Source of the DNA: a virus
Virus record (IMG/VR): IMGVR_UViG_3300050821_007139
Span: 27,469 to 91,468 of that record
DNA length: 64,000 bases
Direction: 5' to 3' (one strand)
Shown: positions 1,638-63,091 of the stretch, one piece after another
Position numbering within the stretch: the first letter of the stretch is position 1
Layout: the number at the start of each line of letters is the position of its first letter
Notes under the pieces: model-generated
Database searches by the model: none
What the model was told of the DNA's origin: nothing
Seen by the model: only the letters and a program-made list of their open reading frames with translations
Program-made: the position numbers and the translations under genes

Positions 1638-1810
1638 TAATTCGCGCGTTTGTATGGATCTTAATATTACTGCTTGTAGCTCCGGCTTTCGCTAAGCCAA
1701 AACATGGTGGCGGCGGAGGCGGTGGGGCGCCGTCGAATTTTATACTGAATGACGCAGGAACTGCGATTCTCACCAATGACGCTGGCACACAGAGGTTAAC
1801 TCCGCCATGA
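1634..1810 (+). CDS. Small secreted Gly-rich protein (58 aa)
   Basis: The ATG overlaps the stop of the TatA-like gene by ATGA and its own TGA overlaps the next start, so all three are translationally coupled. Residues 1-20 form a Sec signal peptide ending PAFA. A KPKH and seven-glycine linker follows, then a repeated short pattern [14 protein letters not shown]. It is too small for a folded enzyme and may be an accessory or remnant of a larger surface protein. Function unknown. Confidence 0.6.
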
Positions 1811-2760
1811 AACGATATCTTTGGTTTCTTTTAGTTTTTATATTTCCTGCATCGTCTATGGCCGATGTAACTTTTAGCTCGACTCGGGCGTATCAATCAG
1901 TATCGCTAACTGGCAGCGCATTTATTCCAAATGTTCTGCTTGGCTCAAACTTGACCCTAACTCTCGTTCACGGAACTTGTCCGTGTACATTGAATAATAT
2001 GACCAATATTTATCCTGGTCAGTTCGGTGTAGTTCATATTATAAATAGCTCTAGTGGTAGCGAGATTCTTACCCTATCAGGTAGTCAATATTCGTTGACT
2101 GTAACGCCTCCTTTTACACCAGATCCAGCATCTGAAAACGATTGGTTTTATACAGTCAACGCGGATAGCAAGGTATTATTTACATCAGCGGCATTACCAC
2201 CTTCGATCTCTAACACACAGGCGAATTTGCTCTCCGGCGCCGACGGAATGACAAGTGGCTGGACTGCACAAAACGCGACGCTTGCCACGGGCGCGACATG
2301 TACTAGCCCAATTGGCGGCACAAATACCTGTGCTTTATTGACTGAAGATACGACTACAAATACGCATTTCGCGTTTCAAAACACAACGCTACCGACATCC
2401 ACAAATACCGCGAGCGTGTTTGCCAAGATAAATTCCGGCACACGTTTTGTAGAGTTTCGAATAGCTGACAATTCTTTTGTCAATGTTGCTAGTGAGATAT
2501 TCGATCCGGTAACGTGCTCGGATACGATATCAGGTACTGGTGCTACCACGATTGGAACGGCGGTAATTATCGGTCATGGGACCATAGCGCGCTCAAACGG
2601 GTTTTGTGAGGGATGGATACAGGCGAATTTAGGCGGCGCTGTTCCGGTATTTGAGAATATCCAATTAGCAACACCGGCTGGTGATAATTATCTTGGAACG
2701 GGGCAGAGTAATTTATTGTGGCGTCCTGCAGTGAGGAATTGTGTATGCTCACCACCATGA
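1807..2760 (+). CDS. Secreted surface/tail protein with possible C-terminal carbohydrate-binding module
   Basis: 317 aa. A clear signal peptide covers about residues 1-19 (cleavage after SSMA). The C-terminal half (about 140-317) has the pattern GADGMTSGW, TEDTTTN, TASVFAK and RFVEFRI. The same pattern recurs in the C-terminus of the following protein (VLFTEDSSTG, YTASFFFKVG, RYANLQI). This suggests a shared jelly-roll module of the kind found on phage tail fibres. The stop overlaps the next start by ATGA. Carbohydrate binding is inferred from pattern alone. Confidence 0.7.
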   Translation: MKRYLWFLLVFIFPASSMADVTFSSTRAYQSVSLTGSAFIPNVLLGSNLTLTLVHGTCPCTLNNMTNIYPGQFGVVHIINSSSGSEILTLSGSQYSLTVTPPFTPDPASENDWFYTVNADSKVLFTSAALPPSISNTQANLLSGADGMTSGWTAQNATLATGATCTSPIGGTNTCALLTEDTTTNTHFAFQNTTLPTSTNTASVFAKINSGTRFVEFRIADNSFVNVASEIFDPVTCSDTISGTGATTIGTAVIIGHGTIARSNGFCEGWIQANLGGAVPVFENIQLATPAGDNYLGTGQSNLLWRPAVRNCVCSPP

Positions 2761-5012
2761 AACGAATTATTCTTACACTTGCTATTGCGATGGCGAGTGC
2801 ATTTCCGGCGCTTGCCCAAAATCAGGGAACTACTAGGCTTTTTCCTCCGATCGATGACTTGAGCCTGGTGAATCATCAGCCCTGGGCCTGCACTCAACTT
2901 ACTGCTGGCTGTGCGTTTAACGTAATCACGCCAAATCCAGGTATTGATCAGAGTGCCCAGATACAGGCTGCGCTTAATGGGTCGAAAACTTTGCCGGTAA
3001 TGTTAGTTGGCGGTCCATTCATTTCTTGCACACAGCTCCAGGTTCCCAACTATGGAACCTTTTTAAGCTATAATACCCTTGCTTATGATCCATTTTTTGG
3101 GACAGAAGCAAATACTTACCTGTCATGCAATAGTACATTTCATGGCACTAGTTTTGTTGCCTTTACTGGGTTACATGGCGGGTTGATTCGAGATATCGCT
3201 ATTGATGATAATTATACGCATCAAACAACTTTTGTGGGATCAATTTCGGGAACAACACTTTCTGTCGCTTCAATTACATCGAGCAATCTATCTCCAACGA
3301 TTACGGTCGGCCAAAGTTTGCAGGACGCGGCAGGTCATATTGCGATGACGACGCAGATAACCGCACTTGGTACTTGTGGAAATCCCGTTGTTCCGCCTTG
3401 TACTTTTTCTGTGTGGCCGTCACAGACAGTTGCAAGCGAAACTATGGGTGCTACAGTACACTGCTTTGAAAACATCCATAATGCTTCGTTCACCACTGCC
3501 TACGATATTCAAGGTGTCCGCTGTACGGGGGATGGATATCATGTTGTTGCCGATGGTAATCAGCCGGGTGGGCAGGGAATTGGTGGCGCTATCATCCGTC
3601 CATTAATTGGTGGCGCCCATACATATCTATCACTAAATGTTGGCGCTGGATTACGTGTCGATCAGGTAAATAACGGATTTGCCTCGGATCTTTCAGTGCA
3701 ATGCTGTCTCAATGCAGCAAGCAACTCGAATAACGGATTCTTCGGTCAATCAGTCGGGGATATTATACTGGCTGGGACAACTGGTCAATATGACAACCTT
3801 CGGACAGAGCAAGATGGAGCGTGTGGAGTTGTATTGCTTAATAGTGGCTACTTAACTCTTTCTAATTTACACGTTGACTCAAACTCATGCGTTGTTAAGG
3901 CGTTTAATTCATCGCTCAGTTTGATAGGTGGAGATGCGTTTAATAGGTTTACTGGGGTCACGGCGATTCAATTATTCAACTCCACTATGACTATGCAAGG
4001 ATTTTTTCTAGGCCCCGGATATTCATCTTCGATCCAAGCTGACGCCACGTCACATTTCTCCGGTTGGTTCGGCGGTACTAACCCTGGAATATCTTTTGCC
4101 GACCCCACAAGCGAACTTGTAGTGGGCCCAGGATTAATAAATTCAGTCGGCGGCAACCCGCCAGCTACCGTAACGCTTACCGGAGCCGCTTTTGCTGCAC
4201 CCGATTTATTACGCTCGGCCAACTCTATATTTGCCTTAAATCATGCGGGTTGTGCAGGTGGAACCGGCGGACATTGCTCTGTTCCGAACCCGACTTTTTT
4301 CACTAAGGGCACGAATGGCGTTTTTGAAATTCAGCAAAGTCTTACCGGCAATGATACAATTACTTGGGGTTCTGCATATGTTAATGCGCCAACACTCAGT
4401 ACGGGAGCTGGTGCGGTAGATTATGTACCGTGGTATGTAAATTCAGTCGGTCAGGTAGTGCTCGAAGCGCCTAATCAGAATCGGCTTGTTACAACTCCTG
4501 TTCCGGCCCAGCCTAACATTGTCACGCTACCATTGAGTTTTGCTGGTGGCGTATGGGGCGGTGGAACGCCTACGGCAGGTCAACTCGATCCAGAAGGCGG
4601 CACTACAGCAGTATTATTTACCGAAGATTCCAGCACCGGTTATCATGGCATATCAACTAATGTTACAGGTGCTGCTGGCACTTATACCGCCTCGTTCTTC
4701 TTCAAAGTTGGCGCTACCGGGGCGACGCGTTATGCAAACCTTCAGATCAATTCGACTACGACTAATGACCAGGTACAGTATCAGGTCAATCCCTGTAATA
4801 ATACAGGAGCGAGTGGCGGAGAAATAGTTGCAAGCGGGTGCATCATGTCACCAAATGGATATGGGCGGGTGTATTTGACTGTGGCAGCGCCGAGTGCATT
4901 ATCAAGCGTCATATTCTTTATGGGTGATTATAGTAATTATACCTATACGGGCGACGGCGTTTCTAATGGTTATTTCTGGGGGCCAATTATGCGTGCTGGG
5001 AATGCGCCATAA
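2757..5012 (+). CDS. Beta-helix tail-spike-like secreted protein
   Basis: 751 aa from ATG 2757. This start is chosen over an upstream in-frame start because it overlaps the previous stop (ATGA) and begins directly with a signal peptide ending PALAQ. Residues of about 100-450 read like a right-handed beta-helix: short repeating strands rich in N, S, T and G with regularly spaced I/L/V, and motifs such as LRTEQDGACGVVLLNSGYL. The C-terminal 150 residues match the jelly-roll-like module of the previous protein. Spikes of this type bind or degrade host polysaccharide. A Sec signal peptide on a spike is unusual, as phage tail proteins normally assemble in the cytoplasm. Confidence 0.7.
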   Translation: MKRIILTLAIAMASAFPALAQNQGTTRLFPPIDDLSLVNHQPWACTQLTAGCAFNVITPNPGIDQSAQIQAALNGSKTLPVMLVGGPFISCTQLQVPNYGTFLSYNTLAYDPFFGTEANTYLSCNSTFHGTSFVAFTGLHGGLIRDIAIDDNYTHQTTFVGSISGTTLSVASITSSNLSPTITVGQSLQDAAGHIAMTTQITALGTCGNPVVPPCTFSVWPSQTVASETMGATVHCFENIHNASFTTAYDIQGVRCTGDGYHVVADGNQPGGQGIGGAIIRPLIGGAHTYLSLNVGAGLRVDQVNNGFASDLSVQCCLNAASNSNNGFFGQSVGDIILAGTTGQYDNLRTEQDGACGVVLLNSGYLTLSNLHVDSNSCVVKAFNSSLSLIGGDAFNRFTGVTAIQLFNSTMTMQGFFLGPGYSSSIQADATSHFSGWFGGTNPGISFADPTSELVVGPGLINSVGGNPPATVTLTGAAFAAPDLLRSANSIFALNHAGCAGGTGGHCSVPNPTFFTKGTNGVFEIQQSLTGNDTITWGSAYVNAPTLSTGAGAVDYVPWYVNSVGQVVLEAPNQNRLVTTPVPAQPNIVTLPLSFAGGVWGGGTPTAGQLDPEGGTTAVLFTEDSSTGYHGISTNVTGAAGTYTASFFFKVGATGATRYANLQINSTTTNDQVQYQVNPCNNTGASGGEIVASGCIMSPNGYGRVYLTVAAPSALSSVIFFMGDYSNYTYTGDGVSNGYFWGPIMRAGNAP

Positions 5013-5058
5013 ATGAGCCTTAAGTGATATATTTGTTAGTTGGACATGGAAGATTCTA

Positions 5059-5292
5059 ATGAGCGAACAGGAAAAACCAACTCTCTGGTCTCGTATTCGC
5101 GAGTTCTTATATCCACCACGGCCTGACAAAACAGCCGTTGGTTACCTTGACTTTGCAGCTGGGGTTGATGACTGTGGTCGTTGCGCCCATTATCTTTCTA
5201 CTACACACCGCTGTAAACTTATCCGTGGTCGGGTATCTCCTAACGGATGGTGCCGGTACTTTGTAAACCCAGGGGAGAATCAGCCCTTTTAG
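5059..5292 (+). CDS. HiPIP-like four-cysteine small protein
   Basis: 77 aa, no signal peptide. Cysteines at 39, 42, 52 and 65 form C-x2-C-x9-C-x12-C with the last one in GWC. High-potential iron-sulfur proteins use the same order (CxxC, C, GWC) to hold a 4Fe-4S cluster, though their spacings are longer. VSPNGWCRYF is typical of small proteins in many proteobacterial phages. A metal or Fe-S site is a reasonable inference; electron transfer is not shown. Confidence 0.65.
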   Translation: MSEQEKPTLWSRIREFLYPPRPDKTAVGYLDFAAGVDDCGRCAHYLSTTHRCKLIRGRVSPNGWCRYFVNPGENQPF

Positions 5293-13621: not shown

Positions 13622-16570
13622 TTATCCACAGCCGGTGTTATTGCCACAGTTTGGGCATGTTAGACAAGTTCCAGTTTGGTTCATTTCAGAGCCGCATTCG
13701 GGACATAAAGTTCCTGAGCGATAAGAAATTAAATCTTCATGATTTTGATTTACATTTTCATTTTGATCTCCTATCAAATCTTTAGCAACTTGAACAAGAT
13801 TAGAATTACCCAGGTCGTTACGGGCTAAATATGTTATTCCAAGATCACGGAAGATTAGGTCCACAATGCTTGAACAAAGTTTAATCGTATCATGGCCTTG
13901 GACGATTCCGGAAGGCTCAAAGCGAGAATGTGTAAAGGCGTCTATATATTCCTCAAGTGGCACCCCGTATTGGATTCCAAGTGAAATTGCTTTTGAAAAA
14001 CATTCCATTAATGCTCGCGTGGTTGAACCTTCCTTAGATAGGTCTACAAAAATCTCACCTAGTGAACCATCAGAATAATTTCCGGTATGAAGGTACAATG
14101 TCTGACCGTTGATCTTATATTTATTTGTATATCCTCTGCGGCGTTCGGGTAAAGAAATTCTCTCGCCTCGGTAATGACCGTTAGGTTTAGTAGTAATATT
14201 CTGTAAATTTCCGTAATTCTCTTTATCTATTGATATAGATTCTTCTGTTAATGTCCATTTGTCTTGAGATTTAGTTTTACTATAAATAGAGCTGGTATAT
14301 AGTTCATTTGTTTCGCTTATGGCTTTATTAAGCAATTCTTCTTTAGCCCAAATCTCTTCTTTTGTATTTGAACTTAATGGCTGCGCTAACTTACATCCGT
14401 CTCGATAGATTGAGATTGATTTGAGGCCAAGTTTATGAGCCAATCTATAAATTTTATCTACATCTGCAACCGTAGCTTTATTTGGCATATTGACGGTTTT
14501 ACTGACTCCGCCGGATAAGAACGGCTGCACAGCCGCTACCATTTTAACATGGCCTTCAGGAGAAATACAATTTTCTCCGACCGCAGTTGCGAATACGGGC
14601 CAATGTTCTTCTTTTATCCATTTTCTAATATCAAATCCGGCTTCGACTTGTTTAACGATTTGGGTAGCTTTTGTAGAATCGTAGCCTAGTTCAAATAAAG
14701 CCCCGTATACGGATTGATTAATAAATTTCATGTTACCTCCCCCGGCTAGTTTCTTGGATTTAACTAGGGCAAAATCCGGCTCTATACCTGTAGTATCGCA
14801 ATCCATTAAGAGCGCTATTGTTCCAGTTGGCGCGATCAAAGTTACTTGAGCATTGCGAAAAATAATAGAATCACTTAAAAGAGTTTTCCAAACAAGATAT
14901 GCTTTACTGTCTATTACTGTCATTGGAGTAACTTGGGCTTTTCTGTAATGTTTATATATAATTTCGTGCATGAATTTACTATTTTCGCCGAATCTTAGAA
15001 ATGGACCTAGTTCGCCTGCTAGTTCAGCACTAGTTTTATAAGCAATGGCAGTCATTAGAGAAGTAATTGCGCCTGCTATACTTCTTCCTTCATCGCTATC
15101 ATAGGCTAAACCGTTGCGCATGATTAGTGCGCCAAGATTAGCATAACCGAGGCCCAAAGTACGGTAATTGTAACTTCCTAGAGCGATCTCCTTTGAGGGA
15201 AAACTAGCCATATAGACGCTGATTTCGAGTACTATGGTCCATAATCTTGTTGCGTGTTCAAAAGCTTCGATATCAAAATCTTTATTGGTTTTTAAAAATT
15301 TACATAAATTTAATGAAGCCAAATTACAAGCGGTATTATCTAAGTGGAGGTATTCCCCGCACGGGTTAGATGCATTGATATCACCATCAGCCTTGCAAGT
15401 GTGCCAGGATTGAATCGTATCATGAAATTGAACCCCTGGATCTCCGCACTCCCAAGCGGAGCTACAGATTTGATCCCATAATTCCTTTGCTTCAAGTACT
15501 TTAGTGACATGTCCTGTTGTACGTTCAGTCAGGAACCATGGTTTGTCTTCGCTAAGCGCATCGATAAAACTATCTGTAACTCGAACTGAGTTGTTAGAAT
15601 TTTGGCCTGATACTGTATCTAAAGCTTCATCGGGGCTCCAAGCTTCGGTAGCTGAAAGGACCTTTGCTTTCTCTTCTTCTTTAACTTTCCAATTTATAAA
15701 ATCTTCAATTTCAGGATGATCAAGATCACAAACTCTCATTAAGGCCGCACGGCGTGTTGTTCCGCCGGATTTAATGGCGCCAGCCGCCCGATCGCCGACA
15801 CGAAGGAAACTCATCATGCCGGAGCTAGTTCCGCCACCGGATAATAATTCTCCCTTGGCTCTCAACTTGCTTACATTTGTCCCTGAACCTGATCCGTATT
15901 TAAAGATCTTTGCTTCACGCAACCAAAGGTCCATAATTCCGCCGGGATTGACTAGATTATCATCTACTGGTTGAATAAAACAAGCGTGCGGAGTTGGATA
16001 TTCGTAAGAGTCCTTACATTCGACTTGATTTCCGTCCTCGTCGTTTCTCCATTGACCATTAACATTTCCGGTAATTCCATAGGCCCAATATAAGCCTGTG
16101 TTAAACCATTGTGGCGAATTGGGCGCTCCGATTTGCTTTGCGAGCATCAAGTAAAGCTCGTCATAGAATATTTGAGCATCATCGTGATTATCTAAGATTC
16201 CTTCGCGCCAGCCCCAATAAGTCCAACAACCTGCGAGCCGATGGAAGACTTGCTTGGCGGAGGTTTCGGAACCGAAAGTTAAGTTTATATCAGGTGCTGG
16301 AATGGATGGTAGGAGCCAAATTGGCATTTCGCCATGAAGTTCTTCGTCCCCTTTTAAATACCCTGTCTTATTTGGCATTCCGGCTTTACGAAAATATTTT
16401 TGCGCTAAGATATCTGTTGCAGTTTGACTCCAATGATCTGGGACTTCAATATCTTTCATCTCGAAGATTATATTTCCTTCGAGATCGGTTATTTGAGAGT
16501 CTACTCGTTTCCACGCGACTTGATCTTGAACTGGTGTATTGGGTAAAGAATAAAATCTCTCGAATTTCAT
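13622..16570 (-). CDS. nrdJ: Adenosylcobalamin-dependent (class II) ribonucleotide reductase
   Basis: 982 aa. It converts ribonucleotides to deoxyribonucleotides using B12, without an R2 subunit. NPCGEYLHLDNTACNLASLNL (about 400-420) is the active-site region and PNKATVADVDK follows the second substrate region. A TSCPD-type module lies at about 810-915 (NGQTLYLHTGNYSDGSLGEIF), as in NrdJ enzymes. The C-terminus carries CPEC...CPNC...C, the redox or zinc cysteines. The N-terminus TDLEGNIIFEMKDIEVPDHW fits the ATP-cone-less class. Length is typical. It supplies dNTPs for the polymerase genes further along the same strand and relies on host cobalamin. Confidence 0.95.
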   Translation of the reverse strand: MKFERFYSLPNTPVQDQVAWKRVDSQITDLEGNIIFEMKDIEVPDHWSQTATDILAQKYFRKAGMPNKTGYLKGDEELHGEMPIWLLPSIPAPDINLTFGSETSAKQVFHRLAGCWTYWGWREGILDNHDDAQIFYDELYLMLAKQIGAPNSPQWFNTGLYWAYGITGNVNGQWRNDEDGNQVECKDSYEYPTPHACFIQPVDDNLVNPGGIMDLWLREAKIFKYGSGSGTNVSKLRAKGELLSGGGTSSGMMSFLRVGDRAAGAIKSGGTTRRAALMRVCDLDHPEIEDFINWKVKEEEKAKVLSATEAWSPDEALDTVSGQNSNNSVRVTDSFIDALSEDKPWFLTERTTGHVTKVLEAKELWDQICSSAWECGDPGVQFHDTIQSWHTCKADGDINASNPCGEYLHLDNTACNLASLNLCKFLKTNKDFDIEAFEHATRLWTIVLEISVYMASFPSKEIALGSYNYRTLGLGYANLGALIMRNGLAYDSDEGRSIAGAITSLMTAIAYKTSAELAGELGPFLRFGENSKFMHEIIYKHYRKAQVTPMTVIDSKAYLVWKTLLSDSIIFRNAQVTLIAPTGTIALLMDCDTTGIEPDFALVKSKKLAGGGNMKFINQSVYGALFELGYDSTKATQIVKQVEAGFDIRKWIKEEHWPVFATAVGENCISPEGHVKMVAAVQPFLSGGVSKTVNMPNKATVADVDKIYRLAHKLGLKSISIYRDGCKLAQPLSSNTKEEIWAKEELLNKAISETNELYTSSIYSKTKSQDKWTLTEESISIDKENYGNLQNITTKPNGHYRGERISLPERRRGYTNKYKINGQTLYLHTGNYSDGSLGEIFVDLSKEGSTTRALMECFSKAISLGIQYGVPLEEYIDAFTHSRFEPSGIVQGHDTIKLCSSIVDLIFRDLGITYLARNDLGNSNLVQVAKDLIGDQNENVNQNHEDLISYRSGTLCPECGSEMNQTGTCLTCPNCGNNTGCG

Positions 16571-22231: not shown

Positions 22232-22517
22232 CGGAATATTCCTTTGGTGAATATGGACATGCTATCTCTTCGTCTAACTTCTTACCTTCAAACCAATCTT
22301 GATAAGTGATTGGTTTTCCTGATTTGTAATCGATATTTTCTTGTTTGCACCAAGTTACGAATCCAGCGCAGATTTGATTAGCGCTGTGACAGCTCCAATT
22401 AATGTTTTCATTATCTTTGAGAGACATTATCTCATATGGGTCTGGGACGCAACCATAGTTTATGGCGCGCTCGGAAGTTTCAGAGCCCATAAATGGGCAT
22501 GAGGAGCAAGCGGTCAT
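22224..22517 (-). CDS. Cysteine-rich hypothetical protein
   Basis: 97 aa with seven cysteines (ACSSCPFMG, YGCVPDPYE, WSCHSAN, ICAGF, WCKQE, ACPYS), a pattern fitting a metal- or Fe-S-binding protein. Its start overlaps the polymerase stop by four bases. Function unknown. Confidence 0.6.
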   Translation of the reverse strand: MTACSSCPFMGSETSERAINYGCVPDPYEIMSLKDNENINWSCHSANQICAGFVTWCKQENIDYKSGKPITYQDWFEGKKLDEEIACPYSPKEYSDE

Positions 22518-24079
22518 GCGACTAGCTCCAAGTTGTTATTTACTCTGGTTCTCTTATCGCCACTTGTGGTCCATTTGATTAATCCGTCGGGATGATCCTG
22601 ATTTGCATTGCCCCAACTCCAGCCTACTTTAGCTTCACTAGGAACAGTAAATCTCCGGCCTCGATAAGATAACGGAACATCTAAATGTTTTTGCATTTCG
22701 CTTATTATTTTAGCTTCATTAGTGTCAAATTCAAGTCTTTGCCCATAAACTGCGTCGTGTAATTGCGCTATAAGTTCTACGGGATGATTGCTATTTGGCC
22801 CCATGTATTTCCACATGCGCCATAAACCAAGATTAAGGCGCCTTGCTGTCGGAGCCTGGGACATGAAGGCAATGCCTTCTTTAATTGTATCATTTGAGTC
22901 TGCGCGGCCAAAAAAATCACGCCTTCCTCCGAAAGCATCTATTAAATAATGCTCGCGTTGAAGTTGTCCGGCTACCCAAGTAAAGAATTGATTTAAGCAG
23001 GGATAAGTAGCAAACATTCTTTCTTGGGCAGATTTAATGAGCTTATTTGGTACTCGAATTTGCCGGGCAATTTCTAAATAGCCGCCGAATTTTTCCGTTC
23101 CATGACGGACGCGTTTGGCAACTTCGCGATAGCTGTGTTGGCGGTAATATAATTGATCTGCAATTTTGCGATCATGTTTCAGATCCCCATTCCAATCTAG
23201 ATCGTTTTCCCAAATCTCGCGCGCTAAGATAGTATGAGGGTCGCCGGATTCGGCTGAGTCTAAGTAGCTTGAGTCGCCAAATAATACCCAACATAGCCAT
23301 CCGGTTTCTCTTGTTTCGGCTTGTTCTAAATCAGCGCCAAATAGCTTCTTATCTTTATTTGCTATGAACATATATCTTAATTCTTCTTCGATATTTTGAA
23401 AATTTCTCCCGGTTCCGGTTATTGATTTTGATGAACTAAAGCGCGATGTTGTTGTCATAGCGGGATTGAAACTGGTACGCATTCGCCAATCGGAATCAAT
23501 TTCGGTTTCTAAAACTTCAAGTTGTCCTTCATTGTCGCGATAAGATAGAATCGCAGCTATTATTGGCCTTGCTATAAAATAACCTTCGAGTTTTTCTAAG
23601 ATTTCCCTTTCCATTGGTTTTGTTAATTTGCCTTCTTTTTTTCTTATTATTGGTGGGATTTGCAGTATATCGTAGAAGAAAGTTGCTAATTGTGAGGTTG
23701 AGTTTGGGTTTAAGGTTTTTGGTTTCGGGTGGTCATTGGTGGCTTTGGTCGGCGAGCGTAAGTCACAAATGGCGCTGACGTAGCAATCAATTATATCGCT
23801 TAATCGTTCTAAGCGTTTTCTTAACTTAGCTATCCCATCTTCTCTTGCCCAAGGGTCAATTTTCCAGCCGCGTAAGTTCATCTCAATTGCGGGTGCCTGT
23901 AAAGCGCGCTCAAAGTCGTAGATTAGCTTTGGGCCTTGAAGCTCGATAGGAGAATTGTGACTTGGAAGCAGGGTTTTTAATTCGTTTAAAACCTCACAAG
24001 TCAACATGCTATCCATGGCATTATAGACTTGGATCGATCCGCAATCAGTATCAAGCTCGTGTGCGGCTATTAATGGCAT
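22514..24079 (-). CDS. Family A DNA polymerase, polymerase domain with the end of the exonuclease domain
   Basis: 521 aa. Motif A is DLEQAETRE (about 250-258). Motif B is a variant around KRVRHGTEKFGGY (about 320-332). Motif C is QLHDAVYG (about 438-445), with HDA where most family A enzymes have HDE. TSRFSSSKS and GTGRNFQNI are typical of the palm entry. The first 25 residues, SIQVYNAMDSMLTCEVL, carry Y-x3-D (Tyr19, Asp23), the third exonuclease motif. Motifs I and II are in the gene at 25095. The full proofreading domain is thus divided between two proteins. Replicates the phage genome. Confidence 0.88.
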   Translation of the reverse strand: MPLIAAHELDTDCGSIQVYNAMDSMLTCEVLNELKTLLPSHNSPIELQGPKLIYDFERALQAPAIEMNLRGWKIDPWAREDGIAKLRKRLERLSDIIDCYVSAICDLRSPTKATNDHPKPKTLNPNSTSQLATFFYDILQIPPIIRKKEGKLTKPMEREILEKLEGYFIARPIIAAILSYRDNEGQLEVLETEIDSDWRMRTSFNPAMTTTSRFSSSKSITGTGRNFQNIEEELRYMFIANKDKKLFGADLEQAETRETGWLCWVLFGDSSYLDSAESGDPHTILAREIWENDLDWNGDLKHDRKIADQLYYRQHSYREVAKRVRHGTEKFGGYLEIARQIRVPNKLIKSAQERMFATYPCLNQFFTWVAGQLQREHYLIDAFGGRRDFFGRADSNDTIKEGIAFMSQAPTARRLNLGLWRMWKYMGPNSNHPVELIAQLHDAVYGQRLEFDTNEAKIISEMQKHLDVPLSYRGRRFTVPSEAKVGWSWGNANQDHPDGLIKWTTSGDKRTRVNNNLELVA

Positions 24080-25094: not shown

Positions 25095-26240
25095 TTATTC
25101 CTCGCGTTTTAAACTCTCGCCATGAGCAAGCATAGACTTCCAGGCAATTTCGTTGCTGTATATCGAAGCCAAGTAACCCAGCCCGCGCCGCTTTTCTGGC
25201 AACGTGGCGTGTTGTAAAATCATTGGATCATCGGCGCAATTATTAACTATGATACCTATTCGTAGAAAATGACTTATATCGAAGATGCCATTTTGAAAGG
25301 CTTTTGGAACTGGAGAGCGCAATGCGCCTATCAGTAATTCCCATGCTTGAATTTCCTCTTCTAAACTTTTCCAATAATTAAGCTCGGGATCTTCTCGGGT
25401 CATGAAAGGAATTACAAGCGATTCGTAAGGACTTCTGGCAAAACTTACCATAGATATAAGTTCGGATAAGATCCGCCGCATTGGAACTGGCATATTTTTG
25501 ATTTCAGACCGGGAGAACAGGGCATATCCGGTTTCGATGTCGATTGTATAAGATTCAGCAGGCTGAGCTAGCCAAGTTTTGATTTCACTTAGGGTTATCT
25601 TTTCTTTCGTTTTTGGATCTTCACAAGTTATCCAGCGTTTGATTCGTCTTATTTCGGGAAAGTTTGATTCGTAGGCGACCTTTTGTAGATCTGAAATAAT
25701 ATCTGTTCTTAGTTGTTCTTGGCGCAGTGCTGCAGGATGGAATGTTGGAAAGACCTTTTTATTAAATCTCAAGCTTAGCTTAGGCGTGCCTCGAATTGAG
25801 CTTATATTAGTTATGCCTAGTAACGCCCAACAGGCATAGTTTCCTAAAGCGACGATTACATTGGGATTATGATTCTCTATTTCTTTCCATAAGTTCTCGA
25901 TATGATAGCGATATTCGGATTTGACATAAAAGATGCGGTTATTGATCTTGATTGGGGGTAAACTTGTGTCTATATTTCCTTGTGTAGCGAAGAATAGTTC
26001 GGTCTTATCGCCTTCCGGGTGTTCGTTGAAGACATTTGTTACTGCAATTTGGTGCTCGTCTTTTAGCCATTTCCAATGAGAGATCATGTCTTCAAGGCTT
26101 GGATAAGGTACGCGCAGTTCAGGCGCAAGATTGGAGCTTCCTAGCATCTTTGCTAATTCTCGGCCTGACCAGCCGACTAATGGATGACCGACTAGGGCTT
26201 CATTTTTTCCTAAACTTTCGGCTACAAGAACTACTTTCAT
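25095..26240 (-). CDS. Fusion of uracil-DNA glycosylase-like domain and 3'-5' exonuclease motifs I-II
   Basis: 381 aa. Residues 1-180 match UDG superfamily family 4/5: VAESLGKNEALVGHPLVGWSG at 6-26 and FPTFHPAALRQE at about 163-174. Residues of about 200-381 are the first part of a DnaQ-type proofreading domain: TIDIETG (motif I, near 230) and FQNGIFDISHF (motif II, near 315). It ends with LGYLASIY...HGES, where family A polymerases lead into motif III. Motif III itself lies at the start of the polymerase gene at 24079. The pair probably reassemble as one proofreading polymerase carrying a glycosylase module. Confidence 0.85.
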   Translation of the reverse strand: MKVVLVAESLGKNEALVGHPLVGWSGRELAKMLGSSNLAPELRVPYPSLEDMISHWKWLKDEHQIAVTNVFNEHPEGDKTELFFATQGNIDTSLPPIKINNRIFYVKSEYRYHIENLWKEIENHNPNVIVALGNYACWALLGITNISSIRGTPKLSLRFNKKVFPTFHPAALRQEQLRTDIISDLQKVAYESNFPEIRRIKRWITCEDPKTKEKITLSEIKTWLAQPAESYTIDIETGYALFSRSEIKNMPVPMRRILSELISMVSFARSPYESLVIPFMTREDPELNYWKSLEEEIQAWELLIGALRSPVPKAFQNGIFDISHFLRIGIIVNNCADDPMILQHATLPEKRRGLGYLASIYSNEIAWKSMLAHGESLKREE

Positions 26241-27622
26241 CTTACAGCTTCACTAGCTTTTCTTTTAGATCTTTCTTTTAGAGTTAATTCGTTAGCTTTG
26301 GCTGCGTATTCTTCATTAATTTCAATTCCCAGTACACTTCGGGCGCCTAGGCTTTCGGCAGCTCGAATTGCACTTCCGCTGCCGGAACATATATCTAAAA
26401 AATCTGTAGCGTTATCGACTAGCATTGATAGAAAATGTTTCAGCATTGATTCTGATTTTTGATTAGGAACGATTGGAGATGTAACTGCAGGGGCCGCGTA
26501 ACAGTCTGTCATTTTTTTAAATAAGGCTCGGTCGCCCCGGGTAACTAATAGACAACTTTCATAGCTTGGCTTAGGATGCAGTCCACGCACACCTGGAGCG
26601 CCGTTATTTGTGTCTGATTTGAACCAAATTAAAGGATAATCGGTAAGAAAGAATTGAGAATTGATAAATTTATTTATGATTGGCAGGGAATCTCCTTCAC
26701 GATCTAACCAAAACATTATATGACAACTGTAACTAGCAAAGTTGTCTATATTATCAATTAATGAATTTGGCAAAGCATAATACGAATTTTCATCATGTGT
26801 AAAATCACAATGAATCAGGTTAAATTTATCTCCGGAATAACTCTCGCTCCAAGATATAAAATCGGTAGTTATAATTGGAGGAGTAGCTTTATCCAAATTC
26901 GGCTTTGGTTTTACATCTGTAATAATAGTTTCAGTTTTTGAAATTGGCATTAATTGTTCATGATTTGTGTCAGTATAGATATCATGTGTATCTGAATAAC
27001 TAACTAATGTTGGAAGGACAGAATCGGCTAGTTTTGTTACTTGATCCTTATTTAAGGGGGCGCGTAGTAGTTCTTCGACTAAATCTGCGGCTTTTTTTTC
27101 CTCCTTTCGTTGTAAGATGCCTAGGGCTTGCGTAAAGTTATCAGCGTTAGATAATAGTGGTGAGTCTAATTCTTTAAAGACATTTAATATGTTTCCGATT
27201 TGTTGCGGGGTGTAATTTAAAGCTTCAGCTGTTTTGGAGTTTGTCCAAGAGATATCTTTGCTTGTTTTATTTTTATGAAAATCTCCTATGGCGCTGACAT
27301 GATCCTGCCAAGATAAGTTTTCGCGCTTGATATTTTCTTCAAGTTCGATAATTTGAAGCTCGTCTGGATCTAAGGTATCGTAATAACGTATGGGAACTTG
27401 GCTTAAGTTTAGTTCTAATGCACAAAGTAATCGTCTGTGTCCGGCGACTAAGGTTAGTTTGTCTAATCGCTCTAGCTTTTCTCTATGAACAATTATTGGG
27501 TTCCAGATTCCTCTGGATCTTATGGAATCTATTAAACCTTCTGTTGTCGCATTCTTTCGTTGGCGCTCGCCTATATTTATCTCGCCTGGATCAACAAAGT
27601 CGATTTCATTTGTTATTGGCAT
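26237..27622 (-). CDS. ParB-like domain fused to degenerate DNA methyltransferase
   Basis: 461 aa. The N-terminal 200 residues are ParB-like: IDSIRSRGIWNPIIVHR, LVAGHRRLLCALEL, IELEENIKRENLSWQDHV. The C-terminal 200 residues follow the N4/N6 methyltransferase order, with FNLIHCDFTHD at the catalytic position and LDICSGSGSAIRAAESLGARSVLGIEIN as the SAM-binding motif. The expected D-P-P-Y/W is CDFTHD, so the catalytic loop looks lost while the SAM loop is kept. Known ParB-MTase fusions modify DNA in phages. This one may be a DNA-binding regulator. Confidence 0.75.
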   Translation of the reverse strand: MPITNEIDFVDPGEINIGERQRKNATTEGLIDSIRSRGIWNPIIVHREKLERLDKLTLVAGHRRLLCALELNLSQVPIRYYDTLDPDELQIIELEENIKRENLSWQDHVSAIGDFHKNKTSKDISWTNSKTAEALNYTPQQIGNILNVFKELDSPLLSNADNFTQALGILQRKEEKKAADLVEELLRAPLNKDQVTKLADSVLPTLVSYSDTHDIYTDTNHEQLMPISKTETIITDVKPKPNLDKATPPIITTDFISWSESYSGDKFNLIHCDFTHDENSYYALPNSLIDNIDNFASYSCHIMFWLDREGDSLPIINKFINSQFFLTDYPLIWFKSDTNNGAPGVRGLHPKPSYESCLLVTRGDRALFKKMTDCYAAPAVTSPIVPNQKSESMLKHFLSMLVDNATDFLDICSGSGSAIRAAESLGARSVLGIEINEEYAAKANELTLKERSKRKASEAVR

Positions 27623-47547: not shown

Positions 47548-48141
47548 ATGCCCATCAATCAAAACCTATCCTTAATCCCCCGGCGCGGCCTGAGCGCCCA
47601 AAATATCACCCTGACTCTCCTAGGCGAATTAACCCAAGCTGATCTAGCCCGGTTGCCATTAAAGCCGAAGACCTCCCCGCCGACCTTGCAAAAGGCCCGG
47701 GCGATCCACCACAAACAAGCCCAATTGATAGCGCAAGGTTTCAGCTTGGCTGAAATAGCGGCCCAAGTCGGCTCAACCGAATCCCGCCTAAGCTTGCTTA
47801 AAAGCGATCCTACCTTTGCACAGCTAATAGCTTTCTATGCAAACCAGCAAGATATAATTAATTACGAAGCCCATGCCCGGGTGCAAGAGACATTAGTTGA
47901 TGTCCTTGAGCTAAGCACTAATGAAATTCAAGAAAGATTAAGTGATGAAACGGTAAGGAAGAAAATTCCTATCCGTGAGTTGCGCCAGTTAGCCGAGTTC
48001 GCAGGTGATCGCAGTATAGCACCCCCGAAGGCAACCCAACAGGGAAGCATTAGCCCACCGCAAAAGATAACCCTAAATTTCGGCTTCGAAACAAAACTCA
48101 AGCCCGAGCCGCAAATTATTGATATGGATACGAATGACTAA
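47548..48141 (+). CDS. terS: Putative terminase small subunit
   Basis: 197 aa. RAIHHKQAQLIAQGFSLAEIAAQVGSTESRL is a helix-turn-helix as in small terminases, followed by helical DPTFAQLIAFYANQQD and RVQETLVDVLELSTNEIQERL. TerS binds the packaging site and loads the large subunit. The promoter with repeats upstream and the terminase-like gene nearby support this. The full-length large subunit is 9 kb further on, which is unusual. Confidence 0.7.
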   Translation: MPINQNLSLIPRRGLSAQNITLTLLGELTQADLARLPLKPKTSPPTLQKARAIHHKQAQLIAQGFSLAEIAAQVGSTESRLSLLKSDPTFAQLIAFYANQQDIINYEAHARVQETLVDVLELSTNEIQERLSDETVRKKIPIRELRQLAEFAGDRSIAPPKATQQGSISPPQKITLNFGFETKLKPEPQIIDMDTND

Positions 48142-48143
48142 AG

Positions 48144-48590
48144 ATGCGCGTAGCTTTCGATCTCAAAGTCGCGTTTCCAAGCATCTCAAAGTATATTCCA
48201 GAGCCGACTTCAATTCACGCCAAGAACGGCCTAAGATACGAGCGAAAGGTAGTTAAAGCCCTAAGTAAAGCTTATTTATTATCACACAACCCTTGGTATT
48301 TCTTTGAAGATATGAACGGCCCGGGCCATATCGTCCCTGATGCTATAATTGAATATCAAGATCAGCTAATAATTATCGAAATAAAGCTGACCTACACCGC
48401 TGAAGCAATCTTCAAATTGCGAAACCTATACTGCCCCGTCATAAGCTATGCTACAAATAAGGAAACTTTACCTTTAGTTATAACCAAAAATCTAACTTCA
48501 GCGTCGCCAAATCCAGCCTTCAATGTCTCCTCAGCTTTAATTAACCCCGAGCCACTCTTACATTGGCTAGGGAAAGGGAATTTAGATTAA
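48144..48590 (+). CDS. PD-(D/E)XK nuclease-like protein
   Basis: 148 aa. GHIVPDAIIEYQDQLIIIEIKLT gives Asp66, Glu79-x-Lys81, the core of the PD-(D/E)XK fold, after a helical start with NGLRYERKVVKAL. Follows terS by two bases. May process DNA ends in packaging or recombination, or attack host DNA. Confidence 0.7.
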   Translation: MRVAFDLKVAFPSISKYIPEPTSIHAKNGLRYERKVVKALSKAYLLSHNPWYFFEDMNGPGHIVPDAIIEYQDQLIIIEIKLTYTAEAIFKLRNLYCPVISYATNKETLPLVITKNLTSASPNPAFNVSSALINPEPLLHWLGKGNLD

Positions 48591-49039: not shown

Positions 49040-49861
49040 ATGGCTATTGAATTCCCACGGCCCCAATTACCAGCCAAGATAGCCCTTGGTATGTTTTGCG
49101 ACGCCAAGTTAAGCTTATTCGAGTGGTGTTCACCCAAGTCAGCCCGGGTAGAGTCGGGTTTAGCTTGGCTAACTGAGCGCGCCTTTGCTGGCACTGTAGA
49201 TCAAAATTTCTGGTGGGTCGGCCCCGACTTTAGTGCTTGCGCTCAAGCACTAATAACTTTAAAGAACGCCCTAAGCCCCGGCTCATTTACTATCCCTTCC
49301 CGCACGCCTGCCCTGACTTTGCTCAACGGTGCGATGCTCCACTTCCGCCCGGCCGAAAACCCGAACGTGTTATACGGCGACTCTGTTTACGCCTGCGTAC
49401 TTGATCAAGCAGTTCATGTTAGCGAAAAAAGCTATCGGGCCTTGCAGGAAACCCTTGCTAATACTCGCGCGCCTTGGCGGATTACAAGTACAGTGGGCGG
49501 AAGAGCAAATTGGTTTAATGAGCTTGCGCGCGAATCTGAGGACGATCCGACTTCCGGTATCTTTTACACCCGGTTCAATGCTCTCGATGCGTGCGAAGCA
49601 GGGTTATTGGCTCAGGAGGATATAGATTACGCCCGGGCGACCTTACCTGACCATATGTTCCGGGCGCTATATCTAGCCCAGCCTTATGACGATAGAATCG
49701 AAGCCGCTTATAAAGCCTCCGATCCGAGAATCATGCGCGATGAAGAGCTGGCTATCATAGCCGGATTAAATCCCGAATCTATCAATTCTATTTCCGATGG
49801 TGAGCTTCTTAAACTCATTCATCCTAACCTGAACGAAAGTAATTCCACTCTCGTTCATTAA
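49040..49861 (+). CDS. Terminase-ATPase-like protein with degenerate motifs
   Basis: 273 aa matching the ATPase half of large terminases in pattern: SGLAWLTERAF, WWVGPD, LTLLNGAMLHFRPAENPNVLYG, then a Walker B-like ACVLDQA (Asp122, Gln123), then ITSTVGGRANWFNEL as motif III. Walker A, expected near 30-40, reads CSPKSARVESG, without the G-K-T/S core. The catalytic Glu is replaced by Gln. No nuclease domain follows. A complete TerL is at 57426. This may be a non-hydrolysing partner of the packaging motor or a degenerate paralogue. Confidence 0.7.
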   Translation: MAIEFPRPQLPAKIALGMFCDAKLSLFEWCSPKSARVESGLAWLTERAFAGTVDQNFWWVGPDFSACAQALITLKNALSPGSFTIPSRTPALTLLNGAMLHFRPAENPNVLYGDSVYACVLDQAVHVSEKSYRALQETLANTRAPWRITSTVGGRANWFNELARESEDDPTSGIFYTRFNALDACEAGLLAQEDIDYARATLPDHMFRALYLAQPYDDRIEAAYKASDPRIMRDEELAIIAGLNPESINSISDGELLKLIHPNLNESNSTLVH

Positions 49862-49881: not shown

Positions 49882-50076
49882 ATGCGTAATATGGGTAAAG
49901 AGGTTAACATCATTAGCGATTCGCCGCATATGCCGCAAGAGCACGGCGATAGTGCGATGCAGAATACCAGCGTTGGTTCCGGCTCCCGGCCGACTCCAAG
50001 CAAGTTCAAGATCGATACTTCGGCCCCGGAAGATCCACACACCCTGGGCCGTGATGTGCCCGGCAGCTTAAAATAA
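49882..50076 (+). CDS. Small polar protein (64 aa)
   Basis: GAAGGGA ribosome site before ATG 49882. Rich in P, S, D and H; probably disordered (PHMPQEHGDSAMQNTSVG). Located in the head-gene block. Function unknown. Confidence 0.6.
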   Translation: MRNMGKEVNIISDSPHMPQEHGDSAMQNTSVGSGSRPTPSKFKIDTSAPEDPHTLGRDVPGSLK

Positions 50077-57425: not shown

Positions 57426-58865
57426 ATGGCAAACCTTATAACTCCAAGTGAAGCTGCAGAATTAATCTTAGCTCGACGTAAAGCTCGAGCTTCTATGGTT
57501 GAGTATGTTAAATATCTTGACTTGGGTTTTGTTCCTGCTAAGCATCATGAACTTATGTGCGCCAAGCTTGATGCGGTCGAACGTGGCGAAATAGATCGCT
57601 TAATGCTTTTCCTTCCTCCAGGATCAGGCAAATCAAAGTATGGATCAGAATTATTCCCAGCGTACTATTTGGGAAAAAATCCAACAAAATCAATTATCGC
57701 TTGTTCACATACTCAACCTCTCGCAGATCGGTTCGGGCGTCGAGTTCGTAACTTGTTTATGCAACCAGAACATAACGCCCTGTTTGGAATTGGACTCGCA
57801 AGTGATTCTAAGGCCGCTTCGTATTGGAGCACTGAGCGCGATGGAGAATATTTCGCTGCTGGTGTAGGTGTTGCTATCTCAGGCCGCCGGGCTGATATTG
57901 GCTTGATCGATGACCCCGTAAAGAATCGTGAAGATGCAGATTCGATTACCTCTCAAGAGCGAGTATGGGATTGGTATATAAATGACTTCTATCCTCGCTT
58001 AAAACCTAATGCCTCACAGATAATTATCTCCACACGTTGGCACGAGCGAGACTTGTCTGGCCGAGTTATTGAACGTGAAGGCTCTCGTTGGGATATAGTT
58101 GAGATTCCTTTTCTTGCTCGTGAGAATGATTTACTCGAACGTGAAATTAATGAACGTCTTTGGCCTGAATGGTTTACACAAGATCAGGTCGATACGGCCC
58201 AGTTAGATGCTCGTAGCTTCAGTGCTTTATATCAGCAACGCCCGGTTTCAGACGAAGGAGAATATTTTAAGCTGAATTGGTTCTCCGAATACGATCAAAT
58301 TCCTGAAAATGCGCATAGATATGGGGCGAGTGATTATGCCGTTACTGAAGGACATGGAGACTTCACGGAACATGGAATTTTTGCCTTAGATAGTTTTGGA
58401 AATTTATATATTGAAGATTGGTGGCGAAAGCAAGCTACAAGTGATGTATGGATTGAGGCACAGTGTGATTTGATTCAAGAATACGAACCCTTACGCTGGT
58501 TTGGCGAATCTGGGCCAATTCGTCGTTCAGTCGAGCCTTACCTTGCCCTCCGTATGACCGAACGCAATGCAGGCTGTTATATTGAATGGCTTCCTTCGCT
58601 TCATGATAAAGCCACACGTTGCCGATCTTTCCAAGCCTTAGCTTCTCGTGGTAAAGTCTTTCTTCCTCATAATGCCTCTTGGAAAGCTGAGCTATTAACT
58701 CAACTTACTCACTTTCCGGCTGGGCATCATGACGATGGTGTTGATGTGTGCTCGCTATTAGGCCGTGGGTTAGATCAGGTAGCGGCGCCAAGGATGAAAA
58801 AATGGAACCGAAATGAAAATCTAACTACTCGTGAACCTAGTGAACATGGTTGGATGGTAAGTTAA
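57426..58865 (+). CDS. terL: Terminase large subunit
   Basis: 479 aa. Walker A LPPGSGKSKYGS (64-75), ATPase motif IIISTRWHE, Walker B region DIGLIDDPV (about 158-166), then a nuclease domain with YGASDYAV (near 300), WFGESG (about 360), and HHDDGVDV (about 437-444). This is the full ATPase-nuclease TerL, P22-like in length. It pumps DNA into the procapsid and cuts the concatemer. Followed by portal and scaffold. Confidence 0.95.
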   Translation: MANLITPSEAAELILARRKARASMVEYVKYLDLGFVPAKHHELMCAKLDAVERGEIDRLMLFLPPGSGKSKYGSELFPAYYLGKNPTKSIIACSHTQPLADRFGRRVRNLFMQPEHNALFGIGLASDSKAASYWSTERDGEYFAAGVGVAISGRRADIGLIDDPVKNREDADSITSQERVWDWYINDFYPRLKPNASQIIISTRWHERDLSGRVIEREGSRWDIVEIPFLARENDLLEREINERLWPEWFTQDQVDTAQLDARSFSALYQQRPVSDEGEYFKLNWFSEYDQIPENAHRYGASDYAVTEGHGDFTEHGIFALDSFGNLYIEDWWRKQATSDVWIEAQCDLIQEYEPLRWFGESGPIRRSVEPYLALRMTERNAGCYIEWLPSLHDKATRCRSFQALASRGKVFLPHNASWKAELLTQLTHFPAGHHDDGVDVCSLLGRGLDQVAAPRMKKWNRNENLTTREPSEHGWMVS

Positions 58866-60871: not shown

Positions 60872-63091
60872 TTGCAAGACCCTCTTAAGCCTTTAAACGA
60901 CGGTAAGATCGGCTTACCCACGGTTGATGCTGGGCATAATAAAATTGCGCCGAATTCTCTTAATGACTCTAATGATGGTAAAGTAAGACCGCTTCGGGCC
61001 GAACAAGTTTCTTCTGAAGAGGAAGACAATGAAATCTTGACTCGCGCCCGTAAACGCTTTGAGCGGGCGATCCAAACCTCGGCTGATAATCGCCGTGATG
61101 GTTTAGATGACGATAAGTTTTACTCTGGAGATCAATGGAGCGCGGATGTTCGCGCAAGGAGAAACGCTGAAAAACGGCCTTGCCTAACTTTAAATAAGTT
61201 TCCGACTCTGGTTAAACAAGTCACTAATGATCAAAGACAAAATCGCCCTACAATTGATATCCATCCGGTTGGCGATAAAGGAGATGTAACTTCTGCAAAG
61301 ATTTATCGAGGCTTGATACGCGAAATCGAACGGGAGTCTTATGCAGATCGTGCTTATGATACCGGATTTGAATCTGCGGCCCGTAAAGGTTGGGGTTATT
61401 GGCGTATAGTTCCGGAATACGAATCTCCTGATACTTTTGATCAAGTCTTACGGATTCGTCGTATTCGTAATACATTCTCTGTTTATGATGATCCTGATTC
61501 GATAGAAATTGATGGTGGTGACTCTACTTGGTGGTTCATTACTGAAATGATGGATCGGGACGATTTCAAACTTAAATATCCCGATAAAGATCCAATGCCG
61601 TTTACAGCAGCCGGTTATGGCGATGCTTATAGAAACTGGCTAGATCAGTATAACATCCGTGTCGCGGAATATTATGAGACTATATTAAAATCTCGTGAGC
61701 TTGTTATGCTCAACAATGGTTTTGAGGGGTGGAGGGACGAATTAAGCAAGGAAGCTTTGGATCAATTTGAGATTGTTCAAAAAAGAAAATCTCTTGTTCC
61801 TACAATTTGGTGGTATAAGATTACAGGAAAACAAATACTAGAGCGCTCAAAATGGCTCGGACAATTTATGCCAGTGATTCGCGTAATCGGCGACGAGATT
61901 GATATTGAAGGTAAGGTTAAATATTCTGGCATAGTTCGCCATGCTAAGGATGCCCAAAGGAGCTACAATTATTTTCGTACTGCTGAGGTAGAACGAATAG
62001 CGCTTATGCCTAAAGCGCCTTATTTAATTGCTGAAGGCCAGCTTGAGGGCTATGAAGGGGTGTGGAAAGAGGCAAATACCAAGTCGCATCCGTATTTGCC
62101 ATATCGAGTTGCTGAGTTACATGGACACTTAGTCCCGCCTCCACGCCGTGAACCTCCTATTTCTCCTGATGCTGGCGATGCAGCTATAGCGGCTAATGCT
62201 GCCCAAGATATGTTGACAACAACAGGGATTCGCTTCGACGCTACACTTAATGAACGTACTTATGACGAGTCTGGTAGAGCACTTCGTGAACTTCGCCGCT
62301 CGGGTGATATTGGCTCTTTCAATCTTGTGGATAACCTTATGCACTCCCTCCGCCATACTGGCGAAGTTTTAGTTGATGCAATTCCGAAGTATTACACCCG
62401 TCCGGGCCGAGTGCTTACAATTATCCGTGAGGATAATACAGAAGAGATGATTAAAGTCTCTGTTGGCGGGAACCAAAGTCCAGTTTCTGAAAGTACTGAT
62501 CCTGATACACAAAAAATCATTCGCGCTTTTGATCCCAAGGTCGGCAAGTATGGCGTGACTGTTACTATCGGCCCAAGTTACGCCACGCGACGGATTGAGA
62601 CTGCAGAATCTATGATGGATTTCCTACGGGCGATTCCGACTGCAGCACCAGTAATTGCTGATCTTGTTGCTAAAAATCAAGATTGGGAAGGCTCGGAAGA
62701 AATTGCTGCGAGGTTGGCTACCTTGCTTCCGCCTGGCCTTAATAAACCTGAGCTACGCGATGTCCCGCCGCAAATTCGCGCAGTTATTAATCAACTTGAA
62801 CAACAAGTTCAACAACTTACCCAAGAACGGCAAATGCTTACGGCTCAGATTAATGATCGTAATGCCGATCGGCAGCTTGCCCGCGAACGTATTAATCGCA
62901 CTTTTGAGGTCCAGCTTCTTAATGTCGTTCAGAAAGCGCAAACAGCGGCGCAAAAAGTTGAGGCTGAAGATAAGCGCACTGCAGCTGCAAACATGCATCA
63001 ACTTGCGGGCGACGTGTTAGATCTTTATGCTGATTTAACTAAGGCTGCCGATAAACCAGAGAAAGAGTCTAAGGGTGGTAAAGGGACTTAA
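60872..63091 (+). CDS. P22-type portal protein
   Basis: 739 aa from TTG 60872. RFERAIQTSADNRRDGLDDDKFYSGDQW, LTLNKFPTLVKQVTNDQRQNRP and FSVYDDPDSIEIDGGD match the P22-like portal start. TRRIETAESMMDFLRAIPTAAP marks its crown-stem part. The C-terminal 130 residues are a Gln/Glu/Arg coiled coil. Forms the dodecameric DNA gate and TerL docking site. The match points to a podovirus. Confidence 0.93.
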   Translation: MQDPLKPLNDGKIGLPTVDAGHNKIAPNSLNDSNDGKVRPLRAEQVSSEEEDNEILTRARKRFERAIQTSADNRRDGLDDDKFYSGDQWSADVRARRNAEKRPCLTLNKFPTLVKQVTNDQRQNRPTIDIHPVGDKGDVTSAKIYRGLIREIERESYADRAYDTGFESAARKGWGYWRIVPEYESPDTFDQVLRIRRIRNTFSVYDDPDSIEIDGGDSTWWFITEMMDRDDFKLKYPDKDPMPFTAAGYGDAYRNWLDQYNIRVAEYYETILKSRELVMLNNGFEGWRDELSKEALDQFEIVQKRKSLVPTIWWYKITGKQILERSKWLGQFMPVIRVIGDEIDIEGKVKYSGIVRHAKDAQRSYNYFRTAEVERIALMPKAPYLIAEGQLEGYEGVWKEANTKSHPYLPYRVAELHGHLVPPPRREPPISPDAGDAAIAANAAQDMLTTTGIRFDATLNERTYDESGRALRELRRSGDIGSFNLVDNLMHSLRHTGEVLVDAIPKYYTRPGRVLTIIREDNTEEMIKVSVGGNQSPVSESTDPDTQKIIRAFDPKVGKYGVTVTIGPSYATRRIETAESMMDFLRAIPTAAPVIADLVAKNQDWEGSEEIAARLATLLPPGLNKPELRDVPPQIRAVINQLEQQVQQLTQERQMLTAQINDRNADRQLARERINRTFEVQLLNVVQKAQTAAQKVEAEDKRTAAANMHQLAGDVLDLYADLTKAADKPEKESKGGKGT

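Follow-up and report, generated by a model that had tools for sequence, protein, structure and literature searches.

Small and large terminases are generally regarded as pairs that evolved together, and it is an open question how a phage can swap its packaging motor while keeping genome recognition. An extra non-motor subunit has a precedent in the three-subunit terminase of herpesviruses, whose accessory subunits, unlike the protein described here (Q), are not dead TerL ATPase domains. In lambda and P22, the C-terminal region of the small terminase binds TerL, and in P22 this involves the first 23 TerL residues (reviewed in PMC9611059). The closest solved fold to Q is the TerL ATPase domain of Thermus phage P74-26 (PDB 4ZNI-4ZNL, 7KS4; E 6e-12, TM about 0.6), an active ATPase with a trans arginine finger, R139. 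A full-text search of the open-access literature gave no precedent for a large terminase that was duplicated or had lost its activity in this way, and no conserved TerL pseudoenzyme was found in the literature searched.

Q is a 273 aa protein encoded at 49040..49861 (+) of the window, by which we mean the whole stretch of 64,000 nucleotides that was analysed (positions 27,469 to 91,468 of IMG/VR virus record IMGVR_UViG_3300050821_007139). Coordinates refer to the window unless a contig is named. An earlier note on this DNA had given the correct coordinates and residue numbers for the gene, which is present once in its own 91-kb virus record. On the minus strand, the same phage encodes a ribonucleotide reductase large subunit (982 aa, 13622-16570), a DNA polymerase match (22514-24079), and a protein matching ParB-like and DNA methyltransferase families (26237-27622).

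Sequence, profile and fold comparison identify Q as a truncated, apparently inactive ATPase domain of a group of large terminases that we call TerL-A. By tblastn, Q matched the TerL of cyanophage S-2L (30.5% identity, 8e-9) and those of Gordonia and Vibrio phages, and the PHROGs match was PHROG 7579 (TerL, 3.4e-4); a Pfam search with Q gave no match. A profile of 62 relatives matched Q at 2e-87, but that profile contains Q itself, so the independent evidence for TerL is provided by the tblastn, PHROG and fold matches. The AlphaFold2 model made from 57 aligned sequences (pLDDT 84.5, pTM 0.77), which was used in place of an earlier 5-sequence model (pLDDT 62), predicts an ASCE ATPase fold of the TerL type. 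In a Foldseek comparison to the PDB, the first 31 matches of the model were large terminases, including those of P74-26 (6e-12), D6E, Sf6, T4 gp17 and HK97, followed at rank 32 by the PhiV-1 terminase bound to Avs3 (8dgc). The earlier note had taken Q to be the ATPase half of a large terminase, and the S-2L, PHROG 7579 and P74-26 matches all agree; the fold and profile comparisons that it proposed both put Q in the TerL family. It had also noted the missing nuclease domain. The open reading frame ends after the ATPase part, where a nuclease domain would start, and a nuclease remnant sought downstream of Q, in the window and in its relatives, was not found.

The nucleotide-handling motifs of Q are degenerate relative to TerL-A. 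The P-loop, which reads [AGS]-x-[TS]-K-x-G-K-T in 58/58 TerL-A, is CSPKSARV in Q (aa 30-37; 49127..49150, +), and the Walker B motif is VLDQA (aa 120-124; 49397..49411, +); every family member has Q in place of the catalytic E123. Alignment with the tblastn TerLs shows the same changes, from CGRRFGKT to CSPKSARV and from IDEA to LDQA. At positions 14, 33, 35, 36, 37, 122, 123 and 126, all 58 full-length TerL-A have Q, K, G, K, T, D, E and R, while the Q family has I, K/R, A/F, R, V/L, D, Q and H. Among the catalytic positions D122 alone is kept, with changes in the adenine motif (Q14I), the P-loop (G35A/F, K36R, T37V/L), and Walker B (E123Q). The degraded Walker A (CSPKSARVESG) and Walker B (D122, Q123) that had been pointed out from the window alone are thus also seen against TerL relatives, and the changes extend beyond them to Q14I, P32, R126H, and ST for GN at 150-151. 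The Q family also has a tryptophan (W29) inserted ahead of the P-loop. By profile, R139 of P74-26 corresponds to Y112 in Q; TerL-A already has Y/F at this position, so it does not count among the changes specific to Q.

Thirty-one of 66 nearly invariant TerL columns are retained in all Q proteins, including D122, G154, N157, F57, and W58, and 30 are lost in all of them, including the P-loop, the catalytic glutamate, and GN at 150-151. The dead motifs are common to 5/5 Q family members; intact motifs are present in 58/58 full-length TerL-A, and Walker A and B are intact in 12/12 TerL-A records from the cassettes described below (including one near-duplicate pair, L185/L188). Judged by sequence, the adenine, P-loop and Walker B functions are all gone from Q. 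Lambda gpA has a deviant Walker A, KSARVGYSK, and the KSARV of Q prompted a comparison, but this reading was rejected because the relatives read RSFRLEAG and E123 is lost too.

Homologues of Q were identified in four other IMG/VR contigs, two through TerL-B neighbours (L006 and L007, with TerL-B being the resident large terminase described below) and two through an alignment scan (L074 and L075). Relatives were recovered by these two routes; single-sequence scans with Q or with the small terminase TerS-A recovered none, a scan of genome contigs with the Q alignment recovered none, and the Q profile had no match in 31 records of other TerL-B phages. The four homologues share 58-60% identity with Q and have CSPRSFRLEAG and VIDQA as their Walker A and Walker B motifs, so the replacements that the earlier note asked to be looked for in related phages are present there. 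Homologues with intact motifs belong to the separate full-length TerL-A clade. In three pairwise comparisons, Q had dN of 0.011-0.025, dS of 0.16-0.35 and ratios of 0.05-0.08, near the TerL-B values in the same phages (0.03-0.05); synonymous sites are saturated in comparisons to the window copy. These ratios indicate that Q has been under purifying selection since it lost its catalytic residues, and on them the pseudogene reading was rejected. The sample is five Q-bearing records in two lineages, possibly including partial genomes, and the nuclease domain and nucleotide-handling residues were lost before these two lineages split.

The position of Q on the genome identifies its source. A putative small terminase of 197 aa (TerS-A; 47548..48141, +) precedes Q, as had been suggested, and matches the putative TerS of Caulobacter phage Kuura (6e-6). 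It is followed by a conserved second cassette gene, which encodes a PD-(D/E)xK-like protein recognized by its PD...EIK signature (48144..48590, +). The Hjc match of the L006 relative of this protein falls below the cut-off, a sequence comparison to solved structures found no relative, and it is possibly a resolvase or a nuclease for genome maturation with a link to packaging. Between this gene and Q lies a gene for a small hydrophobic protein (48796), and a small conserved gene that is also found in the Q-bearing relatives lies 3′ of Q (49882..50076, +).

In other phages, orthologues of TerS-A precede a full TerL-A (about 400-580 aa, 36-43% identical to Q over about 215 aa). In L098, L088 and L159, TerS-A and PD-(D/E)xK orthologues are followed by a DUF6362-like gene and then by a full TerL-A, and alignment scans with TerS-A and the PD-(D/E)xK protein raised the count of distinct cassettes with this order to about eleven. 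No TerL-B was found in the available stretches of these phages, with whole records checked for three. In the Q phages, the order is TerS-A, PD-(D/E)xK, (DUF6362), Q, and TerL-B, with Q in the TerL-A position in L006, L007 and L074; the window has the small hydrophobic protein at the cassette position of DUF6362. Q and TerL-A of the L098/L088/L159 type thus share the ATPase fold, the GR-x-N region, and the slot after TerS-A, PD-(D/E)xK and DUF6362, and differ in that Q is without the nuclease domain, keeps D122 alone of the canonical nucleotide residues, and ends in a new helical tail of about 55 aa.

The cassettes show other variation. DUF6362 (PF19889) lies between the PD-(D/E)xK gene and Q in L006 (5538-6092) or TerL-A in L098 (2177-2662). 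L098 has an inserted PAPS-reductase-like ORF (799-1668) between TerS-A and PD-(D/E)xK, and L159 has an inserted block of genes (1665-5079), with glycosyltransferase- and methyltransferase-like ORFs among them, between PD-(D/E)xK and DUF6362. The portals of the TerL-A cassette phages have a C-terminal inorganic-pyrophosphatase-like domain (PF18823 InPase; L098:4577-7114, 4e-39; L088:10033-12540, 2e-35). The TerL-A members L078 and L079 match phrog_2 and Pfam Terminase_6N/6C, and TerL-A is distantly related to the P74-26/P23-45 TerL.

In the phylogenetic tree, the Q family forms a single clade (100/100) on a long branch that groups with the cassette TerL-A of L098, L086, L088 and L159 (96/71), and with L112 at 92/92. 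Placement of such a long branch is uncertain, though synteny agrees with the tree. On this evidence Q shares both descent and locus with active TerL-A, and it is the ATPase half of the former cognate TerL-A of the TerS-A/PD-(D/E)xK cassette. The earlier note had called Q a paralogue of the complete TerL at 57426, which the evidence does not support, as Q belongs to another TerL lineage whose full-length members fill the same slot elsewhere. Q is very probably a conserved pseudo-ATPase derived from the TerL of this slot.

That complete large terminase, TerL-B (57426..58865, +; phrog_38, 2e-97), was recognized as such in the earlier note and has both ATPase and nuclease domains. It shares a genome with Q but is of another lineage and not a recent paralogue, as the best E value of the Q/TerL-A profile against TerL-B proteins was 0.03. 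A P22-like portal that belongs with TerL-B is encoded at 60872..63091 (+; PF16510, 9e-166). The portal of the Q-bearing relative L006 (14278-17505) has 1075 aa compared to 739 aa in the window, and its insert starts with CLSISTPIPTPSGWTTMGQLKTGDKVFDENG and ends with HN, as an intein would. The TerL-B P-loop reads PPGSAKS in L006, L007 and L074 and PPGSGKS in the window.

TerL-B usually comes with a small terminase of its own. Of 65 loci that lack Q and extend far enough upstream, 50 have a DUF5681-type TerS (TerS-B) that overlaps or abuts the TerL-B start; the other 15 had no detectable adjacent DUF5681 TerS. A Pfam DUF5681 search of whole records missed 2/3 positive controls, and a tuned profile was used instead. 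This profile found the positive controls and no DUF5681-type TerS in the window, the other 27 kb of its 91-kb record, or the Q relatives, so that in the Q phages a TerS of one lineage is paired with a TerL of another. The N-terminal element of TerL-B, I[ST]P.EAA.ELL.RR, is kept in the Q phages as in TerL-B relatives.

In Q, the linker and RNase H-like nuclease domain of TerL are replaced by a Q-specific helical tail (aa 219-273; 49694..49858, +). The tail contains IMRDEELAIIAG (aa 231-242; 49730..49765, +), which resembles the C-terminal motif of the DUF5681-type small terminases, [LM][ST]DxELAxIA, and a second, weaker copy, SISDGELLKLIH (aa 250-261; 49787..49822, +). The corresponding motifs in the Q relatives are LMTDTELAIIAN and AISDEELASLAQ. 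Tails were scored with a position matrix built on the C-termini of 39 distinct TerS-B (consensus [LM][ST]DDELADIA). Of 4660 C-terminal 57-mers from the loci examined, only a few equalled or exceeded the Q tails in score, and shuffled tails reached the score in 17/20000 cases for the window and 3-5/20000 for the relatives. The window copy scored 16.1, below every TerS-B self score (at least 17.5), and the motif is short, resembles a generic helix start or helix cap, and was noticed after the fact. In most TerS-B, the DNA that encodes the motif also covers the TerL-B start and is constrained by it. One of the other high scorers is encoded immediately upstream of TerL-B in L065, a similar gene is present in L069, and both carry the motif essentially without coding overlap with TerL-B. 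TerS-A proteins lack the motif and have a conserved tail of their own, ITLNFG...ID.TP, in Q phages and TerL-A phages alike. The DUF5681-type profile aligned to the tail of Q alone (E 0.08-7), and Q has neither a DUF5681 body nor a TerS fold and is not itself a small terminase. Homology of the tail to the C-terminal tail of TerL-A was unsupported (hhalign probability 0.4%).

The most economical history of this locus would be a recombination joining a TerS-A/TerL-A cassette to a TerL-B/portal module, and a terminase swap of this kind probably took place. It would have placed TerL-B and the P22-like portal downstream of the TerS-A cassette, without TerL-B's own TerS. One crossover inside TerL-A and inside TerS-B, which we infer, would leave the ATPase part of TerL-A fused to a TerS-B-like tail and next to TerL-B, and later insertions would have separated Q from TerL-B. 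TerS-A may still recognise the genome and dock on the A-type ATPase scaffold of Q, and the tail, resembling the C-terminus of the usual TerL-B small terminase, may dock on TerL-B. In this scheme Q, as a non-hydrolysing adaptor, would pass TerS-A-bound DNA to TerL-B, and we propose that it has been retained because both dockings persist. We give about even chances to this account as a whole, in which a former TerL-A ATPase was retained, TerL-B and its portal recombined in, and Q became an adaptor, and slightly lower chances to the bridging of TerS-A and TerL-B by Q. An adaptor need not always be required, as L191 and L193 combine a very distant cassette-like TerS-A and PD-(D/E)xK (3e-12) with another phrog_38 TerL and have no Q.

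Other roles for a conserved dead TerL domain were considered. It could be a weapon or a decoy that sequesters TerS-A, poisons the terminase of competing TerL-A phages, or occupies Avs-type sensors. Q is indeed derived from a TerL of related, competing phages, with much of the scaffold preserved (31/66 invariant columns), the fold search also matched the Avs3-bound PhiV-1 terminase, and the gap between terS and terL houses defence and counter-defence genes in Pseudomonas prophage JBD26 (Tab/anti-Tab, PMC10884400). Such a role is a serious rival, though it seems unlikely. Q was found only where TerL-B and its orthologous TerS-A cassette are both present, in the slot of the ancestral TerL, rather than as a mobile accessory gene; by sequestering TerS-A, Q would also tie up the one candidate small terminase that the phage itself has; and the greatest change in Q is at the nucleotide site, where TerL is otherwise best conserved. 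The earlier note had suggested a regulatory or structural subunit, in which case Q would join the TerL-B ring or the portal and modulate packaging without a role as a TerS adaptor. A conserved pseudo-ATPase with a TerL fold in the late region is in keeping with this, and the isolated D6E ATPase domain can oligomerise (PMC5727402), but ring contacts are homotypic in known motors and are not expected to be shared between Q and TerL-B, as the two are of different TerL lineages (best profile E 0.03). We regard this role as somewhat less likely still, the comparative results pointing more to an adaptor that links the old TerS to the new TerL.

Since TerS-A, the PD-(D/E)xK protein and Q are kept together, and Q is the sole A-type partner remaining for TerS-A, Q might instead serve as a chaperone or regulator that binds TerS-A, DNA or the PD-(D/E)xK protein, as it might during genome maturation, and has no contact with TerL-B. 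This is improbable, as it leaves the missing TerS-B, the retained TerL-B N-terminus, and the TerS-B-like tail unexplained. Finally, the loss of the nuclease and catalytic residues and the plausible takeover of function by TerL-B could mark Q as a functionless remnant of the replaced terminase, but a frame open in five records, 58% identity across a deep split, identical fixed replacements, and the low dN/dS ratios contradict decay and make this very improbable.

Under the preferred adaptor reading, Q may be a third terminase subunit, a stripped ancestral TerL with a TerS-like tail that couples the old recognition subunit to an unrelated new motor, which we put forward tentatively. If true, a dead former motor between an old TerS and a foreign TerL would be a concrete, testable answer to how motors are exchanged, and terminase modules would be swappable through a third subunit.
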